Positions 7,180 to 18,413 of a stretch of DNA of 64,000 bases are shown in pieces. Under the pieces are notes generated by a model that had not been told where the DNA came from, did no database searches, and saw only the letters and a list, made by a program, of their open reading frames with translations. A program made the translations under genes and the position numbers. Within the stretch, counting starts at the first letter, position 1; each line of letters starts with the position of its first letter. Origin of the DNA: Mesobaculum littorinae (GTDB lineage Bacteria > Pseudomonadota > Alphaproteobacteria > Rhodobacterales > Rhodobacteraceae); the NCBI RefSeq assembly GCF_004011175.1, contig NZ_RQXX01000002.1, positions 806,001 to 870,000 on the forward strand, in the 5' to 3' direction.

Positions 7180-7689
7180 CTACTCCGGTGCCTCGGCGTA
7201 GATGCCGTTGTAGAACAGAAGTGGCGTGCCCTCGCGCCAGCTGGCCGAGACGACCCGGCCCACGACGATGGCGTGGTCGCCACCCTCGTGCACCGCGTGG
7301 GCAGTGCAGTCGAATCGCGCGAGGCAATCCAGAAGCGGCGTGCCGCCGGCACCCTCCCCGACGTCGAAGCCGTCGAAGGTCCGGCCGTCGCGGGCGAAGT
7401 TGGCGCAAAGATCGTACTGGTCCGCCGCCATGACGTGGATCGCGAAATGCCGTGCCTCGACGAAGGAGGTGAAGCGCTTCGACGATCGCGCGGGCGACCA
7501 CAGCACCAGCGGCGGGTCGATCGACAGGCTGGCGAAGCTGTTGGCCGTGATGCCCAAGGGGCCGGTCGCGTCGCGGGTCGTGATCACCGTCACCCCGGTC
7601 GCGAAGCGACCTAGCGCCGCGCGGAAATCGCGGGCGGTGTCGGGGCCGGGCGTGATGCTTTTGTCCATGCGCTCTCTGTTCTCTGCCAT
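7180..7689 (-). CDS. Flavin reductase-like FMN-binding protein
   Basis: A 169-residue protein of the flavin reductase-like split-barrel family, which uses NAD(P)H to reduce free flavin, often for a partner monooxygenase. Key segments are FRAALGRFATGVTVITTRD, GPLGITANSFASLSIDPPLVLW (flavin-contacting loop) and GGDHAIVVGRVV near the end. The ATG at 7689 overlaps the stop of the aldo-keto reductase by one base; a second in-frame ATG at 7668 is an alternative start. The overlap suggests translational coupling. No two-component monooxygenase lies next to it, so its partner is unknown. Confidence 0.83.
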   Translation of the reverse strand: MAENRERMDKSITPGPDTARDFRAALGRFATGVTVITTRDATGPLGITANSFASLSIDPPLVLWSPARSSKRFTSFVEARHFAIHVMAADQYDLCANFARDGRTFDGFDVGEGAGGTPLLDCLARFDCTAHAVHEGGDHAIVVGRVVSASWREGTPLLFYNGIYAEAPE

Positions 7690-8591
7690 CAGGGCACCTC
7701 GTTTCCGAGGGCTCGGGTATAGAGGTCGAACCACGTCTGGCGGTCGATCTCCACCGAAAACGCGGCGGCCATCTCGGCGATCCGCTCGGGGCGTGTGCTG
7801 CCGATCACCGGCAATATGCCCGCCGGGTGCGCCAGAAGCCAGCCAAGCGCCACCGCCGCGGGCGTGACGCCGCGGTGCCGCGCCAGGGTGTCCAGGGCCG
7901 CGCGCAGCCGCGGCGGCGCCGTTTCCCCCAGAAGCGCCCCGCCGCCCAGCGGGGACCACGCCATCGGCAGAAGTCGCCGTTCGTGCAGAAAGGCTAGGTC
8001 GCCGTTGGTCAGCGCCCCCGGCGTGGCAAGGCCAAGCTCGATCTGGTTGGCGCAAAGCGGCACCTGCATCCGCGATTGCAGCAGCGTCAGGTCGTGCGGC
8101 CGGAAATTCGACACGCCGACCGCCGCGACCTTGCCCTGCGCCACCAGCCGGTCCAGCGCGGCGCCCGTCGCGTCGGGGTCGAGGAAGGGATCGGGCCGGT
8201 GGATCAGCAGAAGGTCGATCCGCTCGATCCCCATCAGCCGCAGCGATGCCTCGACGCTGCGCGCGATGTGGTCGGGCGAGGTGTCGTAGTGCTTCAGCCG
8301 CGCGGCGGCATGGCGGCCCATCGGCGCGACGATGCCGCACTTGGTGACGATCTCGACCCGGTCGCGAAGCTCCGGCGCCTGCGCGAGGGCCGCGCCCAGC
8401 AGCTCTTCGCTGCGATAGCCGCCATAGATATCGGCCTGGTCCAGCGTGGTGATCCCGTGATCGAGACAGGTCCCGATCCGCTTCAGGATGGCCCCGGGCG
8501 ACGTGTCGCAGGCCTCCGCAAGCCCCGCCATGCCGCAGGCAATACGGCTGAAGCTGAGCCCGGGGGCGACGGATCTGCGGGTGTGGGACAT
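7689..8591 (-). CDS. Aldo/keto reductase (YdhF-like)
   Basis: A 300-residue NADPH-dependent oxidoreductase with the TIM-barrel aldo-keto reductase signatures. The catalytic tetrad can be placed at D51, Y56 (DQADIYGG), K84 and H131 (LLLIHRPDP). The C-terminal cofactor segment reads LPVIGSTRPERI. The overall pattern is closest to the E. coli YdhF branch. The natural substrate is not predictable. It is the first gene of a two-gene unit with the flavin reductase. The start at 8591 gives the normal family length; the frame extends further upstream without family similarity. Confidence 0.87.
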   Translation of the reverse strand: MSHTRRSVAPGLSFSRIACGMAGLAEACDTSPGAILKRIGTCLDHGITTLDQADIYGGYRSEELLGAALAQAPELRDRVEIVTKCGIVAPMGRHAAARLKHYDTSPDHIARSVEASLRLMGIERIDLLLIHRPDPFLDPDATGAALDRLVAQGKVAAVGVSNFRPHDLTLLQSRMQVPLCANQIELGLATPGALTNGDLAFLHERRLLPMAWSPLGGGALLGETAPPRLRAALDTLARHRGVTPAAVALGWLLAHPAGILPVIGSTRPERIAEMAAAFSVEIDRQTWFDLYTRALGNEVP

Positions 8592-8901
8592 GCAAAACGG
8601 GCTTTCTGTCGAACGTTGTCGCGGCGGCGCGGGCGGGCCCGGCCGCGGCCCAGCCTGCCACAGACCGCCACGCCCGAACAGGCCACCCGCGTGCGGGGGG
8701 CGGCGCCGGGGGGCGAGGGGAGCGGCCCGGCTGGCTTCGGTCGGCTTCCGTCGGCGGGATGCGGCGGGGACCTGCCGCATCACGGCCCGTGCGTGCCGCG
8801 ACAGGGCGGACACAAGGCGCGGGGATCGCCTCACGTCACTGGCGCGGCCCCGCGACGCGGCACGGCTGGTCGGGCCGGACGACCGCCCTAGATGACGCCA
8901 C
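8592..8901. other. Divergent intergenic region
   Basis: 310 bases between the start of the aldo-keto reductase (minus) and the start of the DUF1499 gene (plus). It must hold both promoters, but I cannot identify convincing -35/-10 pairs or an operator in this GC-rich stretch. Confidence 0.4.
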
Positions 8902-9369
8902 ATGCGCATGATCACATCCCTCCTCGCCGCCGCCGTCCTGGGGCTTTTCGCTTGGATCAGACTCGCCCCCAGCGACCCGCAGGACTGGCACACCGATCCC
9001 GCCGACGCCGTTAGCCCCGACGGCAACGGCTGGCTGCTGCGGGCCGAGGGCGGCAACGCCCCGCCGCCGCGTTTCGCGGTGACGCCCGAGGTGCTGCTGA
9101 AAGAGGCCGACCGCGTCGCCCGTGGCACGCCACGCACGCGGGTGCTGGCCGGCGGCGTCGGATCGGGACGGATCACCTATGTCACCCGGTCGCTGCTGAT
9201 GGGTTATCCCGACTATACCACCATCACCGCCCGCGCCGCGCCCGAGGGCGCGTGGCTGCTGGTTCATGCCCGCCAGAGGTTCGGGCAGAAGGACATGGGG
9301 GTGAACCGCGCCCGGGTCGAGAATTGGGTGGGGCGGCTGTCGTCTCGCCTGCCGCGCCTGGGCGACTGA
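8902..9369 (+). CDS. DUF1499 domain protein
   Basis: A 155-residue protein with an N-terminal hydrophobic segment (ITSLLAAAVLGLFAWIRL, residues 4-21) that should act as a membrane anchor or signal. The rest is exported or periplasmic. The DUF1499 core is seen in the SLLMGYPDYTTITARAAPEGAWLLVHARQRFGQKD region (residues 98-132) and the basic ending ARVENWVGRLSSRL. Function is unknown for the family. It is followed by the acylphosphatase-like gene on the same strand after 135 bases. Confidence 0.78.
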   Translation: MRMITSLLAAAVLGLFAWIRLAPSDPQDWHTDPADAVSPDGNGWLLRAEGGNAPPPRFAVTPEVLLKEADRVARGTPRTRVLAGGVGSGRITYVTRSLLMGYPDYTTITARAAPEGAWLLVHARQRFGQKDMGVNRARVENWVGRLSSRLPRLGD

Positions 9370-9504: not shown

Positions 9505-9840
9505 ATGGACCCGACCCCGCAACAAGACCCCGCAGCGCCGCAGGCGCCGGACCGGCCAGCGCCGCCGCGCGTCTCGGAACGTTTCGTCATCACCGGCGCC
9601 GTCGAGGCCGCGGATTTCCCGGGCTGGATCGGGGCCCACGGGCGCAAGCTGGGGCTGGAGCTGGGCCCGATGGAGCGGCAGGGCGCCGCGCTGGCCTTTC
9701 GCGCCGCGGGCGCGCCCGAGATGCTCGACGCGCTGGAGATGGGATGCAGCCTCGGGCCGCGCTCGGTGACGGTGCAGCGCGTCGACCGACAGGCCCTGAG
9801 CAACGAGGGCCCTGCCGTTGGTTTCAACAGTGCCCGGTAA
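9505..9840 (+). CDS. Acylphosphatase-like protein, probably catalytically inactive
   Basis: A 111-residue protein. After a Pro/Ala/Gln-rich leader (residues 1-25), the segment VSERFVITGAVEAADFPGWI and the following ARKLGL-like helix, ending in GPRSVTVQRVDRQ, follow the secondary-structure pattern of acylphosphatase. The phosphate-binding loop (normally GxVQGVxFR) reads GAVEAADFP, so the catalytic arginine is absent, and the conserved asparagine of the RN motif is also missing. I infer a non-catalytic relative; the fold assignment itself is moderate. The start at 9505 has GAGGA four bases upstream. Confidence 0.5.
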   Translation: MDPTPQQDPAAPQAPDRPAPPRVSERFVITGAVEAADFPGWIGAHGRKLGLELGPMERQGAALAFRAAGAPEMLDALEMGCSLGPRSVTVQRVDRQALSNEGPAVGFNSAR

Positions 9841-9914
9841 ACGTGCAATCCGACTAATAAGTGATCAAAGTATCGCGTTTCGGAGGGCGCGCCACGGGGC
9901 TGTCCGGCGCCTGT

Positions 9915-9943
9915 TTGACCGGCCTGCGCGCCACCCCTAGGGC
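9915..9943 (+). promoter_or_regulatory. Possible promoter of the purine/oxygenase operon
   Basis: TTGACC at 9915-9920 is followed 17 bases later by TAGGGC at 9938-9943, a weak -35/-10 pair about 55 bases before the first gene of the operon. An AT-richer stretch (9845-9885) precedes it. Pattern only; the -10 match is poor. Confidence 0.22.
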
Positions 9944-9997
9944 TTGCGGCTAACGGTTCCCGGCCTGCGGGGACGCCTGCCCGGAGGTCCGCCAGCC

Positions 9998-10684
9998 ATG
10001 CCCGATCCGATCCTTTGGCATCCTGCTGCGCTGTCCCGCGATCTGCCGGCGGCGACGGTGATGCCAACGGCCTGCGGGGATGTCGAGGTCGCGCTGTGGC
10101 GCAGCGCAGGGGGGCGGGTCTCGGCGTGGTACGACCGTTGCCCGCACCGCGGCATGCGTCTGTCGCACGGCTTCGTCCGGGGCGAGATGCTCAGCTGCAT
10201 CTACCACGGCTGGCGCTTCGATACCGAAGCCGTCTGCCGCAAGATCCCGGCCCATCCCGACCTGACGCCGCCCGAAACCATCACCGTACCGCGGTTTCGC
10301 GCCGCCGAACGCCACGGCGTGATCTGGATCGCCCCGCGAAGCGATGCAGCAGGTCAGGGGCAGGAGGCCGGCCAAGGCCAGGGACGTGGGCAGGGCCGGG
10401 GGACGCTGGACGACGGCGATCCGGCGCCGGACGCCTTGCCGCCACTGCCGGGGGACCTCGGGCCGCTGCGCAGCCTGCAGGTCGCGCGCGACGGGGCCGC
10501 GGTCGCCGATGCCCTGGGCGGCTGGCACGCCCGGGTGGCGGGGGGCGTTCACGTGCTGGTGCAGGCCCTTCCCGGGGGGCACGCGGCGCTGCATAGTCTG
10601 ATCGACCCCGAAGGCGACGCGATCGCCGCCAGCCGCCGGCTGGAGGCGCTGCGCCGCGATCTGGAAAGCGAGGCTGCCGCATGA
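9998..10684 (+). CDS. Rieske [2Fe-2S] protein with degenerate C-terminal oxygenase part
   Basis: A 228-residue protein with an intact Rieske cluster site: C48 and H50 in CPHRG, C67 and H70 in CIYHGW. It should pass electrons to a mononuclear-iron oxygenase. After a Gln/Gly-rich linker (residues about 123-140) the C-terminal 85 residues (including VLVQALPGGHAALHSLIDPEG) resemble a worn-down oxygenase domain; the iron-binding N-D-H-H motif is absent. GGAGGT lies nine bases before the ATG. The gene overlaps the next one by four bases (ATGA). With gene 10681 it forms a complementary pair, each keeping the metal site the other has lost. Family resembles the Rieske N-terminal domains of ring-hydroxylating and N-demethylating oxygenases. 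Confidence 0.8.
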   Translation: MPDPILWHPAALSRDLPAATVMPTACGDVEVALWRSAGGRVSAWYDRCPHRGMRLSHGFVRGEMLSCIYHGWRFDTEAVCRKIPAHPDLTPPETITVPRFRAAERHGVIWIAPRSDAAGQGQEAGQGQGRGQGRGTLDDGDPAPDALPPLPGDLGPLRSLQVARDGAAVADALGGWHARVAGGVHVLVQALPGGHAALHSLIDPEGDAIAASRRLEALRRDLESEAAA

Positions 10685-11532
10685 CCGACCCCAAGACCGA
10701 CCCCATGAAGGATCAATGGCTTCCCGTCTCGATGTCGGCCGACCTGGGTCCCGCGCGCCGCGACACCGTGGTGATGGGCGTCCCGGTGACGATCTGGCGT
10801 GCCTCCGACGGCACCGCCCGGGCCGAGGCCGAGGGGCGGACGCTCGCGGTCACCGAGGATTACGACCACCTGTGGATCTGCCTCGGTACCCCGGCGCTGC
10901 CGCTCTTCGACATTCCCGAGGCGCGCCAGCCCGGGCGCCGCTTCGTGCCCTGCGGCCGGGTGCGGGTGGCCTGCTCGCCGCTGCGCGCGATCGAGAACTT
11001 TCTCGACATCGCGCATTTCCCCTTCGTCCATACCGATATCCTGGGGGCCGAGCCGCAGACCGAGGTGACGCGCTACAAGGTCGACCTGCGCGAGAACGAC
11101 ACCGAGGTCTGGGCGACGAAGGTCGAATTCTACCAGCCGCAGGCCTCGAAATCGGCCACCGGCGGGGTGCTGACCGAGTATTCCTACCGCGTGCCCGCGC
11201 CCACCGTGTCGGTGCTCTACAAGACCTGTCCGCCGCGGCCGGGCGAACGGGACGTGATCGCGATCTTCGTGCAGCCCGTGTCGGAAACGGTCTGCGACGT
11301 CTGGCCGTGGATGGCGCTGTTCGACGATGAAAGCGCGCAGGCCGACCTGGTGGGCTTTCAGCAGATGATCTTCGTGCAGGACCGCTCGATCCTGGAAAAC
11401 CAGGTACCGGCGCTCCTGCCGCTGGACCCGGGCCGGGAGATCCCGACACGCGCCGACCTGACCTCGGTCGCCTATCGCCGCTATCTCAAGGCGCACGGCT
11501 TCACCTATGGCGCGGAACTGGTGCCGGCATGA
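10681..11532 (+). CDS. Rieske-less non-heme iron oxygenase subunit (NdmC-like)
   Basis: A 283-residue oxygenase alpha-subunit homologue. The mononuclear iron motif is intact: N106, D109, H112 and H117 in ENFLDIAHFPFVH, with a likely third ligand D234 in FVQDRSILENQ. The N-terminal part (residues 30-70, VTIWRASDG through YDHLWICLGTP) looks like a shrunken Rieske domain from which the Cys-X-His and Cys-X2-His cluster sites have been lost. This is the layout of NdmC, the Rieske-less N7-demethylase subunit of caffeine-degrading Pseudomonas. Electrons would come from the Rieske protein encoded just upstream. It overlaps its neighbours by four bases on both sides. The substrate (an N-methyl or other modified purine) is inferred from context. 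Confidence 0.78.
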   Translation: MTDPKTDPMKDQWLPVSMSADLGPARRDTVVMGVPVTIWRASDGTARAEAEGRTLAVTEDYDHLWICLGTPALPLFDIPEARQPGRRFVPCGRVRVACSPLRAIENFLDIAHFPFVHTDILGAEPQTEVTRYKVDLRENDTEVWATKVEFYQPQASKSATGGVLTEYSYRVPAPTVSVLYKTCPPRPGERDVIAIFVQPVSETVCDVWPWMALFDDESAQADLVGFQQMIFVQDRSILENQVPALLPLDPGREIPTRADLTSVAYRRYLKAHGFTYGAELVPA

Positions 11533-12185
11533 TCCTGCACGACTGGATCCTGTCGCCCAACTGCTACAAGGTGCGGCTGCTGGCGGCGCTGACCGGCCAG
11601 CCGCTGACGCTGCGCGCGGTGAACGTGCATCCCGGCCGCGACCACCTGTCCGACAGCTACCTTGCGCTGAACCCCGCAGGCACCTTGCCGATCCTCGAGG
11701 ACGGCGATCTGGTGCTGGGCGACAGTGCTGCGATCCTGACGCTGCTGGGCGCGCGGGCCGGGGCGGGCTGGTCCGGGCAGACGCCCGAGGACACGGCGCG
11801 CATCGCGGGCTGGCTGGCCTTTGCGCAGGACCTGTCGGGCAGCGCCGGTCAGGCCCGGGCCATCGACATGATCGGCGCGCCGGGGTCGCTGCCCGAGGCA
11901 CAGGCGCGGGGCCGCGCGCATCTGCGGCGGCTTGAACAGGCGCTGGCCGAGCGCGCGCTTGCGGGCGGTACCTTCCTTGTCGGCGAAACGCCCAGCATCG
12001 CCGACATCGCCTGTTTCCCGCACGTGATGCTGGCGCCCGACGGCGGCCTGTCGCTGGCGCCCTATCCGGCGATCCGGCTCTGGTCGCGGGCCGTGCGCGC
12101 GCTGCCGGGGTTCATCGAGATGCCCGGGATCCACCGCCTGCACGAGCTGTCCCCCGAGCCCGAGATGGAGACCGAACTGAGATGA
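11529..12185 (+). CDS. Glutathione S-transferase-like protein (NdmE-like partner)
   Basis: A 218-residue GST homologue: thioredoxin-fold start with SPNCYKVR (residues 9-16), NPAGTLPILEDGD, the D-S pair of GDSAAIL that normally contacts glutathione, and a helical C-domain containing FLVGETPSIADIACFPHVML. In Pseudomonas caffeine degraders a GST-like protein, NdmE, is needed as a structural partner of the Rieske-less oxygenase NdmC. The position here, directly after such an oxygenase with ATGA overlaps on both sides, suggests the same role rather than detoxification. Whether it binds glutathione is unknown. Confidence 0.8.
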   Translation: MILHDWILSPNCYKVRLLAALTGQPLTLRAVNVHPGRDHLSDSYLALNPAGTLPILEDGDLVLGDSAAILTLLGARAGAGWSGQTPEDTARIAGWLAFAQDLSGSAGQARAIDMIGAPGSLPEAQARGRAHLRRLEQALAERALAGGTFLVGETPSIADIACFPHVMLAPDGGLSLAPYPAIRLWSRAVRALPGFIEMPGIHRLHELSPEPEMETELR

Positions 12186-13546
12186 GCGTGCTGTTCCGCG
12201 GCTGCGACGCCGTCGTCACCAGCGCCGACGCGCCCGTCCTGCGCGACGTCGACCTGCTGACCGAGGGCAACCGCATCGCGGCCATCGGGGCGGACCTTGC
12301 CGCGCCCGAGGGCGCCCGGGTGATCGAGGCCGCGGGCCTCGTGCTTTACCCCGGGCTGATCAACACGCACGACCACTTCTTCCAGAGCTTCGTGCGCAAC
12401 CGGGCCGAGCTTGACTGGACGCGGCTCAGCCTGATCGAGTGGCTCGACACGATCTACCCGATCTTCGCGCGGCTGGATGAGGATTGTTTCTACCATTCCT
12501 CGGTGGTGACGATGGCCGAGCTGATCAAGCACGGCTGCACCACCTCCTTCGACCACCAGTATGCCTTTCCCGACCACGCGGGCCCGCGGCTGGTCGACCG
12601 GCAGATCGAGGCGGCGGGCCTTCTGGGCATGCGTTTCGTCGCGGGGCGGGGCGGCAACACCCTGCCCAAGTCGCAGGGCAGCACCATCCCGGACGCGCTG
12701 TGCGAAACCACCGACGGCTTCATCGCCGACTGCGCGCGGCTGATCGACACCTATCATCAGCCCGATCCCTTCGCGATGGTGCAGGTGGCCGTCGCGCCCT
12801 GCCAGCCGGTCAACTGCTGGCGCGAGACGTTCGAACAGTCCGTGGCGCTGGCCCGGTCGACCGGCGTGCGCCTGCACACCCACGCGGGCGAGGGCGAAAG
12901 CCCGGTGATCGCGGCGCGCCACGGGATGCGCACGATCGATTACCTCGAAGAGATCGGCTTTGCCGGTGAGGACACGTGGCTCGCGCATTGCTGGGAGCTG
13001 ACGCGCGGCGAGCTGGGGCAGCTGGCCGCCAGCGGCACCGGCGTCGCGCACTGCCCCGAGCCCGTCTACCTGGTCGGGGCCGAGGTCACCGACATCCCCG
13101 CGATGGAGGCCCTGGGCCTGCGGATCGGGCTGGGCGCGGACGGCGCGGCCTCGAACGACAACTCGAACCTGATGCACTGCCTGCATTCGGGCTACATGCT
13201 ACAATGCCTCGTCGCGCGGGACCGCGCCGACCCGGTGCCGCGGCCCGCCGCCTTCCTGCGCTACGCCACCGAAGGCGGCGCCGATCTTCTGGGCCGGCCC
13301 GAGCTGGGGCGACTGGCGCCGGGGCAGGCCGCCGACCTTTTCGCCGTCGACATGCGGGGGCTCGACTTCGTCGGCACCCGCCACGACCCGGTGTCGCTGC
13401 CCGCCAAGGTGGGGCTGGGCGCGCCGGTCGACCTGACCATGATCGACGGCCGCGTCGTCTGGGCAAACGGGGAGTTCCCCGGCCTCGACGAACGCGATCT
13501 GGCCCACGCGGCCGAGACCGCCATGACCCGCGCCCTGGGCGCCTGA
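12182..13546 (+). CDS. Amidohydrolase, 8-oxoguanine/modified-purine deaminase type
   Basis: A 454-residue metal-dependent hydrolase of the AtzA/TrzN-guanine deaminase class. Metal ligands can be assigned to H63 and H65 (NTHDHFF), H234 (HTHAGEGE) and D320 (GLGADGAASNDNSN), with H269 (AHCWEL) and E237 as likely catalytic residues. The overall pattern is closest to 8-oxoguanine deaminases. The usual HCPxSN motif is changed to HCPEPVYLVG (from H290), so the substrate may differ from 8-oxoguanine. It sits between the oxygenase genes and a purine-type importer, fitting deamination of an imported guanine-like base. Start overlaps the GST stop (ATGA). Confidence 0.8.
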   Translation: MSVLFRGCDAVVTSADAPVLRDVDLLTEGNRIAAIGADLAAPEGARVIEAAGLVLYPGLINTHDHFFQSFVRNRAELDWTRLSLIEWLDTIYPIFARLDEDCFYHSSVVTMAELIKHGCTTSFDHQYAFPDHAGPRLVDRQIEAAGLLGMRFVAGRGGNTLPKSQGSTIPDALCETTDGFIADCARLIDTYHQPDPFAMVQVAVAPCQPVNCWRETFEQSVALARSTGVRLHTHAGEGESPVIAARHGMRTIDYLEEIGFAGEDTWLAHCWELTRGELGQLAASGTGVAHCPEPVYLVGAEVTDIPAMEALGLRIGLGADGAASNDNSNLMHCLHSGYMLQCLVARDRADPVPRPAAFLRYATEGGADLLGRPELGRLAPGQAADLFAVDMRGLDFVGTRHDPVSLPAKVGLGAPVDLTMIDGRVVWANGEFPGLDERDLAHAAETAMTRALGA

Positions 13547-13564: not shown

Positions 13565-14647
13565 ATGACCCATACCAGACGCGCCTTTCTGGGCACCGCC
13601 TCGGCGGCGGGCCTTGCCGCCGCACTGCCGCTGCGCGCCTCGGCGCAGGATGCGCTGCAAATTGCGCTGATGGTGCCGTCGCCCGCCGCCGATGTCGGCT
13701 GGTCGCGCACCCTGCTCGACGGGACCGAGGCCGCGGCCGGGGCCGTGGGGGGCGAGGTGACGTTCCTCGAAAGCATCTCGGAAGGGCCCGACGCCGACCG
13801 CATCATGCAACGCGCCGTGTCGAACGGCGCCCGCTTCGTGATCCTGGGCTCCTTCGGCTACATGAACGGCGGCCTGCAACTGGCGCGCCGCTTCCCCGAC
13901 GTGTCGATCCTGCACGCCTCGGGCTACCAGACCGCGCCCAACTTCTCGCCCTTCGCGGCAAAGTACTACCAGGGCACCTACCTGATGGGCATGGCCGCCG
14001 CGGCGCTGTCGACCTCGGGCAAGATCGGCTCGGTATCGGCCTTCGCGATCCCCGAGCTCATCACCTCGATCAACGCCTTCGTGCTGGGCGCGCAGGCGGT
14101 GAACCCCGAAATCGAATGCTCGGTCGTCTGGGTGAACTCGTGGTTCGACCCCGCGTCCGAGCGTGAAGCCGCGCAGGCGTTGATCAGCCAGGGCTGTGAC
14201 GTGCTGTTCTCGAACGCGCAGGACACGCCGTCGGTGATCTCGGTCGCAGAAGAGGCGGGCGTCTATGCCTTCAACCTGAACTCGCCGATGAAATCCTACG
14301 CGCCCGAAAAATACCTCGGTGTCGTGGGCACCGACTGGGCGCCGTTCTTCACCGCGCAGGCGCAGGCCCATGTCGACGGCAGCTTCGAGGGGGCGAACCA
14401 CTACCTCGGGATGGAGGACGAGGTCGTCTACGTCTCGGACTGGACACCCGACATTCCCGCCGACATCAAGACCCGCATCGACCAGACGCAGGCCGAGATC
14501 GTCAGCGGCGCGTTCAACCCGATGACCGGACCGCTGACCGACCAGTCGGGCACAGTTCGGGTCGAGGACGGCGTGACGATGACGCGGGACGAGATCCAGG
14601 CGATGGACTGGCACGTCGCGGGCGTCACCACACCGCTGCCGAACTGA
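13565..14647 (+). CDS. BMP family ABC transporter substrate-binding protein
   Basis: A 360-residue periplasmic binding protein of the BMP/PnrA (Med) family, which binds nucleosides and related purines. A twin-arginine-like signal is seen at residues 4-10 (TRRAFLG) followed by an alanine-rich core and ASAQ cleavage region (about residue 28). Family segments include ALMVPSPAADVGWSRTLLDG, FVILGSFGYMNG and the YQGTYLMGMAAAALS stretch. AGGAG lies upstream of the ATG. It starts the importer part of the operon, 18 bases after the amidohydrolase, and is followed by ATPase and two permeases. Confidence 0.9.
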   Translation: MTHTRRAFLGTASAAGLAAALPLRASAQDALQIALMVPSPAADVGWSRTLLDGTEAAAGAVGGEVTFLESISEGPDADRIMQRAVSNGARFVILGSFGYMNGGLQLARRFPDVSILHASGYQTAPNFSPFAAKYYQGTYLMGMAAAALSTSGKIGSVSAFAIPELITSINAFVLGAQAVNPEIECSVVWVNSWFDPASEREAAQALISQGCDVLFSNAQDTPSVISVAEEAGVYAFNLNSPMKSYAPEKYLGVVGTDWAPFFTAQAQAHVDGSFEGANHYLGMEDEVVYVSDWTPDIPADIKTRIDQTQAEIVSGAFNPMTGPLTDQSGTVRVEDGVTMTRDEIQAMDWHVAGVTTPLPN

Positions 14648-14651
14648 GCGC

Positions 14652-16434
<1,783 letters not shown>

Positions 16435-16445
<11 letters not shown>

Positions 16446-17505
16446 GCTGATCCGACGCGACCGCGCGTCGCTGGAGATGGCGCTGATGGCGCCGGTGCTT
16501 GCCCTGCTTGCAGCCGGTCTGGTGTCTTGGGCGCTTTTCGCGGCGATGGGCGTACCCGCGGGCCGCGCCCTCTGGACCATCGCGGCGACGCCATTTTCCA
16601 CCTGGTACGACTTTTCCGAGGTGCTGGTGAAGACCGCGCCGCTGTTGCTGATCGCGCAGGGGCTGGCCATCGGCTTTCGCGCGCGGGTCTTCAACATCGG
16701 CGCCGAGGGGCAGCTGCTGATCGGCGCGATCTGCGCCTCGGCAATCCCGGTGCTGCTGCCCTCGGCCGGCTCGCCGCTGCTGTGGGTCGCGATGATGGCG
16801 CTGGGCATGGTCGGCGGCGCCGCCTGGGCGGCGATCGCGGCGTTCTGGCGCACGCGGCTCAACGCCAACGAGATCCTCGTGACGCTGATGCTGTCGCTTA
16901 TCGCCGCGCAGATCCTGACCTATTTGCTGCTGGGCCCGTGGAAGGACCCGATGGGAATGAATTTCCCGCAGACCCGCATGTTCCAGCCCGGCGCGCTGCT
17001 GCCCGGCCTCCTGCCGGGAACGCGGGTCAACCTGTCACTGCTCTTCGGGGTCGCGGCGACGATCGCCGCCTATGTCTTCATGCAGCGCAGCGTGACGGGC
17101 TTTCGCCTGATCGTCACTGGCACCGCGCCGCGGGCGGCGGGCTATGCCGGGGTTTCCGCCGCGCGGGGCGTCTGGCTGTCGTTGCTGATCTCGGGCGCCG
17201 CCGCGGGTCTGGCCGGGGCGGCCGAGGTCGCGGGCCCGCTGGGACAACTGCAACGCTCGATCTCGCAGGGCTACGGCTTCGCCGCGATCATCGTGGCCTA
17301 CCTGGGCGGGCTGCACCCGGTGGGGATCGCCGTGTCGTCGCTGGTGATGTCGGCGATCTACATCGGCGGCGACAACGCCATGGTCTTTGCCGACCTGCCG
17401 CAATCGGCGGTGCTGGTGGTGCAGGGGCTCTTGCTGACCTTTTACCTGATCGCGGCGACCTTCGTCCGCTACCGCATCGCCTGGACCGGGACCGCCCGCG
17501 CATGA
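16435..17505 (+). CDS. BMP-type ABC transporter permease 1
   Basis: A 356-residue inner-membrane permease of the BPD_transp_2 family with roughly nine hydrophobic segments. Typical sequences are GLAIGFRARVFNIGAEGQLLIG (residues 78-99) and the late GYGFAAIIVAYLGGLHPVGIAVSSLVMSA block. The ATG at 16435 has AAGGA six bases before it and lies inside the end of the ATPase gene; a frame reaching back to 16237 is an out-of-frame shadow of that gene. With the second permease it forms the membrane channel of the importer. Confidence 0.9.
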
Positions 17506-18413
17506 GCCCCCTGGAATTCATCCTCGCCGGAACGCTGGCCGCGGCGACGCCGCTGATGCTGGCCGCGCTGGGCGAACTGGTGGTCGAACGCTCGGGCGTG
17601 CTGAACCTCGGGGTCGAGGGGATGATGGCGCTGGGCGCGGCGGTGGCCTTCATCGTGGCCTACCAGACGGGCGGCCACGGCCTGGCCTTCGTGGCGGGTG
17701 CCGGGGCGGGGATGGCCGCGGCGCTGGTCTTTGCCGTGCCGGTGCTGGGCTTCCGCGCGAACCAGGTGGCGGCGGGGCTTGCGCTGGGGATCCTCGCGGG
17801 CGGGCTGTCGGCGATGGTGGGGCGCCCTTACGAAAGCCTCACCATCCGCAGCCTGCCCAAACTCGACATTCCCGTCCTGTCGGACCTGCCATATGTCGGC
17901 GGCGTGCTGACGCAGGACATCGCGGTCTGGGCGACGCTGGCGATGGCCGTCGCCATGGCGTGGGTGTTCCGGTCCACGCGGCTGGGCTGGCGCATCCGCG
18001 CGGTGGGCGAGAACCCCCATGCCGCCCGCGCCATCGGCACCCCGGTGCTGCGGCTGCGGCTGGCCTGCATCGCCTTCGGCGGGGCGCTGGCGGGGATGGG
18101 CGGGGCCTATGCCGCGACCGTCTACACCCCGCTCTGGGCCGACGGGATGATAGCGGGACGCGGCTGGATCGCCGTCGCGCTGGTTGTCTTCGGGACGTGG
18201 CGCACGGGCCGCGTGGCGCTGGGCGCGATCCTTTTCGGCGCGCTCTCGATCGGCGAGCTGGTGGTGCAGGCCACGGGCGTGCGCATCCCCTCGCAGGCGC
18301 TGGCAGCATTGCCTTACGTCGCCACGATCATCGTGCTGGCGGTGATCTCGTCGAACAGGATGCTGACGCGGCGCCACTCGGTCGCCTCGCTGGGCGAGCC
18401 CTTCGATCCCTGA
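17502..18413 (+). CDS. BMP-type ABC transporter permease 2
   Basis: A 303-residue permease of the same family as its upstream neighbour, with about eight membrane segments. Signature stretches are ERSGVLNLGVEGMMALGA (residues 28-45) and RSTRLGWRIRAVGENPHAARAIG, followed by GAYAATVYTPLWADGMIAGRGWIAVALVVFG. It starts within the stop codon of the first permease (ATGA overlap) and is the last gene of the operon; prfA follows after 84 bases. Two different permeases plus a double ATPase and one binding protein make a complete importer. Confidence 0.9.
   Translation: MSPLEFILAGTLAAATPLMLAALGELVVERSGVLNLGVEGMMALGAAVAFIVAYQTGGHGLAFVAGAGAGMAAALVFAVPVLGFRANQVAAGLALGILAGGLSAMVGRPYESLTIRSLPKLDIPVLSDLPYVGGVLTQDIAVWATLAMAVAMAWVFRSTRLGWRIRAVGENPHAARAIGTPVLRLRLACIAFGGALAGMGGAYAATVYTPLWADGMIAGRGWIAVALVVFGTWRTGRVALGAILFGALSIGELVVQATGVRIPSQALAALPYVATIIVLAVISSNRMLTRRHSVASLGEPFDP

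Follow-up and report, generated by a model that had tools for sequence, protein, structure and literature searches.

How an oxygenase can be built when its two metal centers are encoded by different genes is the question raised by an operon of Mesobaculum littorinae, located in a stretch of 64,000 nucleotides (contig NZ_RQXX01000002.1, positions 806,001 to 870,000 of the forward strand), which is referred to here as the window. Rieske oxygenases are described, in the accessible portions of PMC12445004, with both centers in each alpha subunit and with electrons crossing between the subunits. The original prediction, made from the sequence alone, claimed that genes 9998 and 10681 are relatives that lost opposite halves of such an oxygenase and that a GST-like partner follows them. 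Our analysis favors, with a probability of roughly 70%, the reading that genes 9998, 10681, and 11529 encode one purine oxygenase of the NdmCDE kind, with a separate Rieske subunit, a methylated purine as the substrate, and an origin by duplication. The gene content, motifs, predicted folds, conservation, and single tree branches described below are directly established.

The two halves of a Rieske oxygenase

The coordinates are positions within the window, and P0001 to P0004 are the products of genes 9998, 10681, 11529, and 12182. Model confidence is given as the predicted local distance difference test (pLDDT) and the predicted template modeling score (pTM).

9998..10684, + strand: P0001, free Rieske [2Fe-2S] subunit of 228 residues (Pfam Rieske, E 1.7e-19; pLDDT 86.4, pTM 0.82)
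10139..10207, + strand: P0001 codons 48-70, with the four cluster ligands, which do not vary in 31 aligned rows
10460..10681, + strand: P0001 codons 155-228, stripped catalytic-domain remnant, homologous to the NdmD linker (hhalign and structure overlay)
10681..11532, + strand: P0002, NdmC-type Rieske-less non-heme iron oxygenase of 283 residues (VanA_C, E 2.2e-21; Foldseek match to GxtA, E 4.3e-18)
10711..10905, + strand: P0002 codons 11-75, Rieske-fold base kept and cluster-binding subdomain missing (structure overlay and alignment lengths)
10996..11031, + strand: P0002 codons 106-117, iron-site motif N106-x2-D109-x2-H112-x4-H117, invariant in 31 aligned rows
11529..12185, + strand: P0003, NdmE-type GST-like protein (Pfam GST_N/GST_C; 38% identity to a Sinorhizobium (S.) meliloti GST)
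12182..13546, + strand: P0004, probable N2,N2-dimethylguanine hydrolase (NdmH) of the amidohydrolase superfamily (13 of 13 active-site residues)

The three junctions among these four genes are 4-base ATGA overlaps each, and the coordinates, ligands, and four-base overlaps of the split gene pair were all confirmed on recheck. P0001 carries the claimed cluster ligands C48, H50, C67, and H70 and no iron-site motif. Its Rieske domain is complete; a low-complexity linker connects this domain to a well-predicted one at 155-228, and the block-mean pLDDT of residues 151-228 is 89-98. The whole P0001 model overlays full-length oxygenases, namely GxtA (200 residues, 3.0 Å, Z 17.2) and dicamba monooxygenase (198 residues, 2.5 Å, Z 17.0), indicating that the tail occupies the place of the catalytic domain; the worn oxygenase remnant proposed for gene 9998 is thus real. 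In an hhalign comparison, the tail matched the linkers of NdmD proteins (probability 93.8, E 1.7e-7) with a score of 45.6, where 30 column shuffles reached at most 13.8, and the Rieske domain is 43% identical over 114 residues to that of an NdmD homologue. By these alignments, P0001 is the N-terminal part of NdmD, linker included, in the form of a separate protein.

P0002 has the iron-site residues N106, D109, H112, and H117, as predicted, and D234 is its probable third iron ligand; D109, H112, H117, and D234 are invariant in the 31 rows. Residues 1-100 carry no Rieske motif, with only H63, C67, C91, and C98 present, in agreement with the predicted loss of the cluster ligands. Residues 43-278 align to residues 95-333 of the SxtDIOX chain, an alignment by which about 51 residues, the cluster-binding subdomain, would be missing from P0002. 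In the predicted model (pLDDT 79.1, pTM 0.82), residues 5-279 superimpose on GxtA 3-334 (Z 26.9, 255 residues, 2.4 Å), and the model supports a retained Rieske-fold base. Counted on one alignment of every oxygenase row, the spacing from W13 to N106 is 88-124 residues in 57 of the 58 Rieske-less rows (49 in the remaining short row), compared with 143-156 in all 11 full-length rows; together with the overlay on GxtA, this spacing bears out the shrunken Rieske region claimed for gene 10681. P0002 is an NdmC-type oxygenase that lacks only the cluster-binding subdomain.

Neither protein therefore combines both centers in one chain in the manner of an alpha subunit, since P0001 has only the cluster motif and P0002 only the iron motif, and P0002 has the catalytic-domain fold of an alpha subunit, with D-x2-H-x4-H and a distal carboxylate. 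The best PDB sequence matches of both halves are SxtT/SxtDIOX (GxtA) and then NdmA, and by fold, among the matches that Foldseek found, they are full-length Rieske oxygenases; a better alignment to unrelated families, which the original prediction had named as a point against the split, was not seen. P0002 is 43-45% identical to NdmC homologues from clusters of Pseudomonas putida Tik1, Klebsiella, and S. meliloti and about 30% identical to HpxD. P0002 Q227 and F231 were compared with NdmA N282 and F286, positions that we presume to have a role. Q and F are found there in 41/47 free-Rieske, 8/11 NdmD-linked, and 6/11 full-length sequences, and these positions, with the pair frequent in all three groups, do not discriminate.

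A highly improbable alternative is that P0001 is merely a Rieske-type ferredoxin serving an otherwise self-sufficient oxygenase in an ordinary three-component system. Rieske ferredoxins are known electron carriers, and P0001 does have one Rieske motif and no iron-site motif; P0002, however, lacks a cluster motif of its own, and P0001 is closest by sequence to oxygenase alpha subunits (SxtT, 2.4e-22; NdmA, 6.7e-18; best ferredoxin, 8.1e-6), with a second folded domain that overlays the oxygenase catalytic domain. On the basis of this proximity and of the extra folded domain, P0001 as an ordinary Rieske ferredoxin was rejected.

The predicted GST homologue is indeed next in the operon. P0003 is NdmE-like and shares 38% identity over 205 residues with the GST encoded in the ndmCDE-like cluster of S. 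meliloti.

Distribution and origin of the split

A search of the genome collection with P0002 yielded 456 relatives, and the analysis retained the 80 best loci, which are not an even sample. In all 80, a Rieske motif is present in the upstream gene and absent from the oxygenase, which has the N-x2-D-x2-H-x4-H motif (80/80 each), far more consistently than chance would allow, and the two gene junctions are 4-base overlaps in 74/80 and 78/80 loci, with starts picked by script. The original prediction had regarded an intact Rieske domain in homologues of gene 10681 as fatal to the idea of split subunits; none was found in the Rieske-less clade (80/80 loci). The loci belong largely to Rhizobium, Mesorhizobium, Agrobacterium, and their relatives, so that the split pair, for which a search across Rhodobacterales had been suggested, is not limited to that order. 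In even samples that included the genome itself, P0002 matches were found in 18/244 genomes of the order and 8/385 of the class (E ≤1e-30), and in 24/398 genomes of an even phylum sample (E ≤1e-20, full-length relatives included). There were nine probable full-length matches in the sampled genomes, and G835 and G893 were left out of the comparison.

We classified 127 loci (L numbers), and one or more Rieske-less oxygenases occur in 115 of them. Of these 115, 106 carry a free Rieske gene and 8 a fusion of the NdmD kind, and in 1 (L085, cut at the start of its record) neither is in view. Outside the 115 are L153 (5.2 kilobases, under the gene-scan filter of 6 kilobases) and L087, counted as having no oxygenase. 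A GST of the P0003 kind occurs in 114 of the 115. In six loci (L083, L096, L104, L151, L154, and L159), two Rieske-less oxygenases accompany one Rieske partner, free or NdmD, and one GST, suggesting that exchangeable catalytic subunits share a “plug”. On a Lichenihabitans plasmid (L085), a Rieske-less oxygenase follows ABC transporter genes, and the stretch read, at the start of the record, holds neither a Rieske gene nor a GST gene. On a Cupriavidus plasmid (L087), an ndmCDE-like cluster lies beside a formaldehyde dehydrogenase gene, and its ndmC and ndmD frames look broken.

Selection was examined by the ratio of nonsynonymous to synonymous substitution rates (dN/dS). The median was 0.163 for the Rieske core, 0.447 for the tail, 0.241 for the Rieske base of the oxygenase, 0.043 for its catalytic part, and 0.131 for the GST, in 1396 of 3240 pairs picked by oxygenase dS, with at most 47 pairs lost per part and with dS near 1 and partly saturated. 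An artefact, a pseudogene, or a frameshift was rejected as the cause of the split, given its conservation in 80/80 loci and a median dN/dS below 1 in each part.

A further gene is a conserved companion of the free Rieske gene.

9505..9840, + strand: small acylphosphatase-like protein without the presumed acylphosphatase arginine

An acylphosphatase-like gene is present in 98 of the 127 loci, that is, in 98/106 free-Rieske, 0/8 NdmD-fused, and 0/10 full-length-only loci. In 96/98 it lies directly upstream of the Rieske gene on the same strand, and in the other two it is at the far end of the operon. The window member has no Pfam match and is 43% identical over 83 residues to an R. johnstonii acylphosphatase-like protein, itself just under the Pfam cut-off; among 13 family members, 7 have a PF00708 match at E ≤0.1 (best 6.7e-7), and a profile of the 13 matches acylphosphatases (best E 3.3e-5). 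We take the acylphosphatase arginine to be the one that follows a conserved Phe. It is visible there in the alignment to 1v3z and absent in the 13 aligned companion members, so that the companion is probably not an acylphosphatase. It may be an assembly or docking part for the free Rieske subunit.

The origin of the two halves was examined with two trees. In the catalytic-domain tree (56 rows; near-duplicates dropped, three HpxD rows added), all 42 Rieske-less rows group in a single clade (100/99) that excludes the 14 full-length rows, and this clade shares a joint branch with the full-length oxygenases of L160-L165 (99/95). In the Rieske-domain tree, from which 18 of 67 rows were dropped (16 near-duplicate loci and two L087 rows), the 35 rows from free Rieske proteins and NdmD fall on a single branch (94/83, not starred), whose neighbors are L088 (81/65) and L160-L165 with L090 (87/83). 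The nearest full-length relatives are thus those of L160-L165, L088, and L090; those of L160-L165 and L088 lie beside BMP-ABC genes. Both halves come from one oxygenase family. In the BMP-ABC operons of L160-L165, most have 2-3 BMP-like genes and some a deaminase-like gene.

Since the two halves share one family origin and a remnant of the lost part persists in each, duplication with opposite domain loss explains them better than fission: a full-length oxygenase would have been duplicated, and the two copies would have lost opposite halves. Simple gene fission, very unlikely in our estimation, would equally trace both halves to the same full-length family, but P0001 would then have no catalytic remnant and P0002 no Rieske base, and both of these are present in the predicted models. 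Within the history of duplication and opposite loss, the Rieske-reductase fusion (NdmD) looks later than the free form, since the free Rieske rows L151 and L152 fall inside the NdmD branch and no fused row falls in the P0001 branch. The NdmD rows alone as one clade were not rejected (approximately unbiased test, p 0.25), so that the free-to-fused direction rests on parsimony.

Proposed substrate, complex, and electron supply

P0004 falls by Pfam/NCBIfam among the 8-oxoguanine-deaminase-like amidohydrolases, under the cut-off of that model. Drexler and colleagues list 13 active-site residues (catalytic and CQNN) for poNdmH in the part of PMC13054789 available to us, and P0004 has 13/13 of them at a constant offset of -6. 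The operon deaminase of Pleomorphomonas oryzae (L056), to which P0004 is 70% identical, matches poNdmH 13/13 by residue number and is, by this correspondence, very probably poNdmH itself. The 13 residues are present in 88/88 loci with a deaminase more than 55% identical, compared with 4-8/13 in 18 other deaminase-like frames; the 89th deaminase row, outside the 88, comes from the window itself, whose gene is truncated where L093 ends. P0004 is thus a probable NdmH, an enzyme that, in the same portion of PMC13054789, converts N2,N2-dimethylguanine to xanthine in one step and whose physiological context its authors are still investigating. In the main text of that paper, neither a Rieske protein nor an operon is mentioned.

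The NdmH neighbor and the kinship to NdmC suggest demethylation of methylguanines or methylxanthines by a purine N-demethylase with a detachable Rieske subunit, perhaps specific for N7. Together with NdmD and NdmE, NdmC demethylates 7-methylxanthine at N7 (PMC4408171 and PMC10380055, in the portions available); by this analogy, N7 as the target position is a guess, and the most likely target would be the N7-methyl of 7-methylguanine, 7-methylxanthine, or 2,2,7-trimethylguanine. An unlikely alternative is that the split enzyme removes the exocyclic N2-methyls of N2-methyl- or N2,N2-dimethylguanine, in parallel to NdmH. The gene next to that of the oxygenase system encodes NdmH, which acts on N2,N2-dimethylguanine, but such an activity would be redundant with one-step NdmH unless the oxygenase takes the monomethyl form, and the characterized NdmA, NdmB, and NdmC act on ring nitrogens. 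The M. littorinae genome has a xanthine dehydrogenase, a formaldehyde dehydrogenase, and a separate guanine deaminase over curated cut-offs. Another guanine link is seen in R. rhododendri (L084), where the neighbor of a more distant Rieske-less oxygenase is a guanine deaminase that passes the curated cut-off.

Downstream of the four overlapping genes come four genes for a BMP/PnrA-type ABC transporter, the last of which ends at 18413.

13565..14647, + strand: BMP/PnrA-like substrate-binding protein (Pfam Bmp, E 2.4e-37)
14652..16445, + strand: ABC transporter ATPase with two ABC domains (Pfam ABC_tran, 2 stretches)
16435..17505, + strand: ABC permease 1 (Pfam BPD_transp_2)
17502..18413, + strand: ABC permease 2 (Pfam BPD_transp_2)

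The proposed N-demethylase would work as follows; we infer the complex, the electron path and donor, and the substrate. An unlinked reductase would deliver electrons to the Rieske cluster of P0001, which would dock where the Rieske domain of the neighboring alpha subunit would sit in an ordinary trimer. From there, the electrons would pass via D109 to the mononuclear iron of P0002, which would activate O2, and the GST-like P0003 may hold the complex together, as proposed for NdmE. The transporter would import an N-methylated purine, most likely the substrate, whose oxidative N-demethylation would release formaldehyde, and NdmH would remove the C2 (methyl)amine to give xanthine. For comparison, NdmC depends on NdmE, its GST-like partner, and on the Rieske domain of NdmD, and the three proteins assemble as a 3:3:3 complex (accessible portions of PMC4408171 and PMC10380055); in an ordinary enzyme, a distance of about 12 Å separates the Rieske cluster of one subunit from the iron of its neighbor (PMC12445004, in part). 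As for the predicted three-protein oxygenase, the separation of the Rieske and iron centers into different genes held in 80/80 loci, and the assembly into one oxygenase is a deduction from these data.

A free Rieske protein without a reductase in view is found in the window, L151, L152, L158, and others. In L099 and L156, a free Rieske protein, a Rieske-less oxygenase, a GST, and a separate NdmD-type reductase are encoded side by side, and this operon reductase is the best guide to what M. littorinae must supply from elsewhere. Of the FAD_binding_6 matches of the M. littorinae genome, one is a GbcB-like reductase, discussed below, and the second place is best described, under the cut-off, as a dihydroorotate dehydrogenase electron-transfer subunit; the genome has eight Fer2 matches. 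Full NdmD proteins are found in L081, L082, L083, L100, L154, L157, and L159. A frame of L155 (7107-8417, - strand) joins, judging from its translation, a Rieske domain and a degenerate tail to a plant-type 2Fe-2S ferredoxin, apparently without the flavin part.

Several results weigh against this reading. The alignment of P0002 12-43 to SxtDIOX 11-43 is not significant by sequence (score -1.1), and the iron-site stretch of the P0002 model is poor, with block-mean pLDDT values of 48 and 52 at residues 111-130. By profile, the P0001 tail matches the Rieske-less catalytic domains weakly (probability 19, score 25.3, shuffle maximum 13.9), and its score against the catalytic domain of the 11 full-length rows, 11.5, is within the shuffles (maximum 15.0). 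P0001 and P0002 have no direct sequence similarity (best E 0.042), as is expected if each keeps only a worn part of the half that the other needs, and reciprocal loss therefore rests on the folds and trees. Regarding the donor, neither the 80 loci nor the window revealed an NdmD-type reductase, and the one NdmD-reductase match of the genome is best described as GbcB-like (374 bits, under the cut-off of 500), beside its own GbcA-like oxygenase. No formaldehyde enzyme was found among the eight operon proteins scanned. Finally, relatives of the HpxD type hydroxylate the ring, so that demethylation is not certain.

The same split enzyme might instead hydroxylate a carbon of the purine ring in an HpxD-like manner, for example C8 of guanine or xanthine, which we consider unlikely. 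HpxD proteins are related at about 30% identity, the NdmH product xanthine would be a ready substrate, and both HpxD-like Rieske oxygenases and relatives of guanine deaminase are among the purine-oxidation genes under the control of the xanthine riboswitch (PMC7373994, in the portion available). However, P0002 is nearer to the NdmC homologues (43-45%), the HpxD rows fall outside the Rieske-less clade, and the genome already has a xanthine dehydrogenase.

Returning to N7-demethylation, a wider reading is possible, which we put forward tentatively. A branch of the Rieske oxygenases would have arisen by duplication and opposite losses, with a shared detachable plug that serves exchangeable catalytic subunits and is helped in assembly or docking by the GST and a dead acylphosphatase; NdmCDE of caffeine degraders would be a late version in which the plug is fused to the reductase. 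In M. littorinae, the plug would drive N7-demethylation and, with NdmH, take RNA-derived methylguanines, for example 7-methylguanine and 2,2,7-trimethylguanine, to xanthine, which would be the missing physiological context of NdmH.

Known systems and neighboring features

The closest known system is NdmCDE, the 7-methylxanthine N7-demethylase of Pseudomonas putida CBB5, which shares with the window the NdmC-type oxygenase, the Rieske domain located elsewhere with the same degenerate linker, and the GST-like partner. The comparison used the homologues from P. putida Tik1, Klebsiella, and S. meliloti, with the CBB5 sequences themselves outside the loci; homologues of all three proteins are 34-46% identical over the matched parts, and the original comparison with NdmC, NdmD, and NdmE was right. 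In contrast to NdmCDE, the Rieske domain of the window is free, with no flavin/plant-ferredoxin reductase fused to it or in the operon, and the P0001 chain stops behind its linker homologue. The window also has the NdmH deaminase, the BMP-type ABC transporter, and the acylphosphatase-like protein in place of the purine permease and the formaldehyde genes of the caffeine cluster. The free-Rieske arrangement is a variant of the NdmCDE kind. NdmH as the identity of the fourth gene, the acylphosphatase-like companion, and the missing reductase are additions to what was first predicted.

The oxygenases of L160-L165 and L088 are of the same family, the nearest unsplit relatives, with similar transporter genes, but they have both motifs in one chain, and no GST or acylphosphatase-like gene was found with them. 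SxtT/SxtDIOX (GxtA) and NdmA/NdmB, which have solved structures and rank high among the matches to both halves by sequence and by fold, likewise differ in having both centers in one chain. HpxD, a subunit of the molybdenum-independent xanthine hydroxylase, is also a purine-linked Rieske oxygenase, but it is full length and has an adjoining reductase gene. The likeness to poNdmH lies in the fourth operon gene, with all 13 listed residues.

A free-Rieske version of NdmCDE is not described in the openly searchable literature (titles, abstract starts, and some passages), in which no Rieske enzyme in 7-methylguanine catabolism was found either. A natural separate Rieske subunit would make electron transfer and docking approachable by titration, mutation, and mixing with the active site untouched, and would recast NdmD as a Rieske half-enzyme fused to a reductase. 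The NdmH family would gain a genomic setting, and the operon points to a little-known degradation route for methylated RNA bases.

In the region 9700-10100, no sigma-70-like promoter or terminator pattern was found, which says little for M. littorinae. Riboswitch control like that by the xanthine-sensing NMT1 motif was rejected, as no Rfam family reached the cut-off in the window, L001, L005, L081, or L083. The opposite strand upstream (window 7183-9176, - strand) encodes a flavin-reductase-like domain and an aldo/keto-reductase-like protein, as assigned by Pfam.

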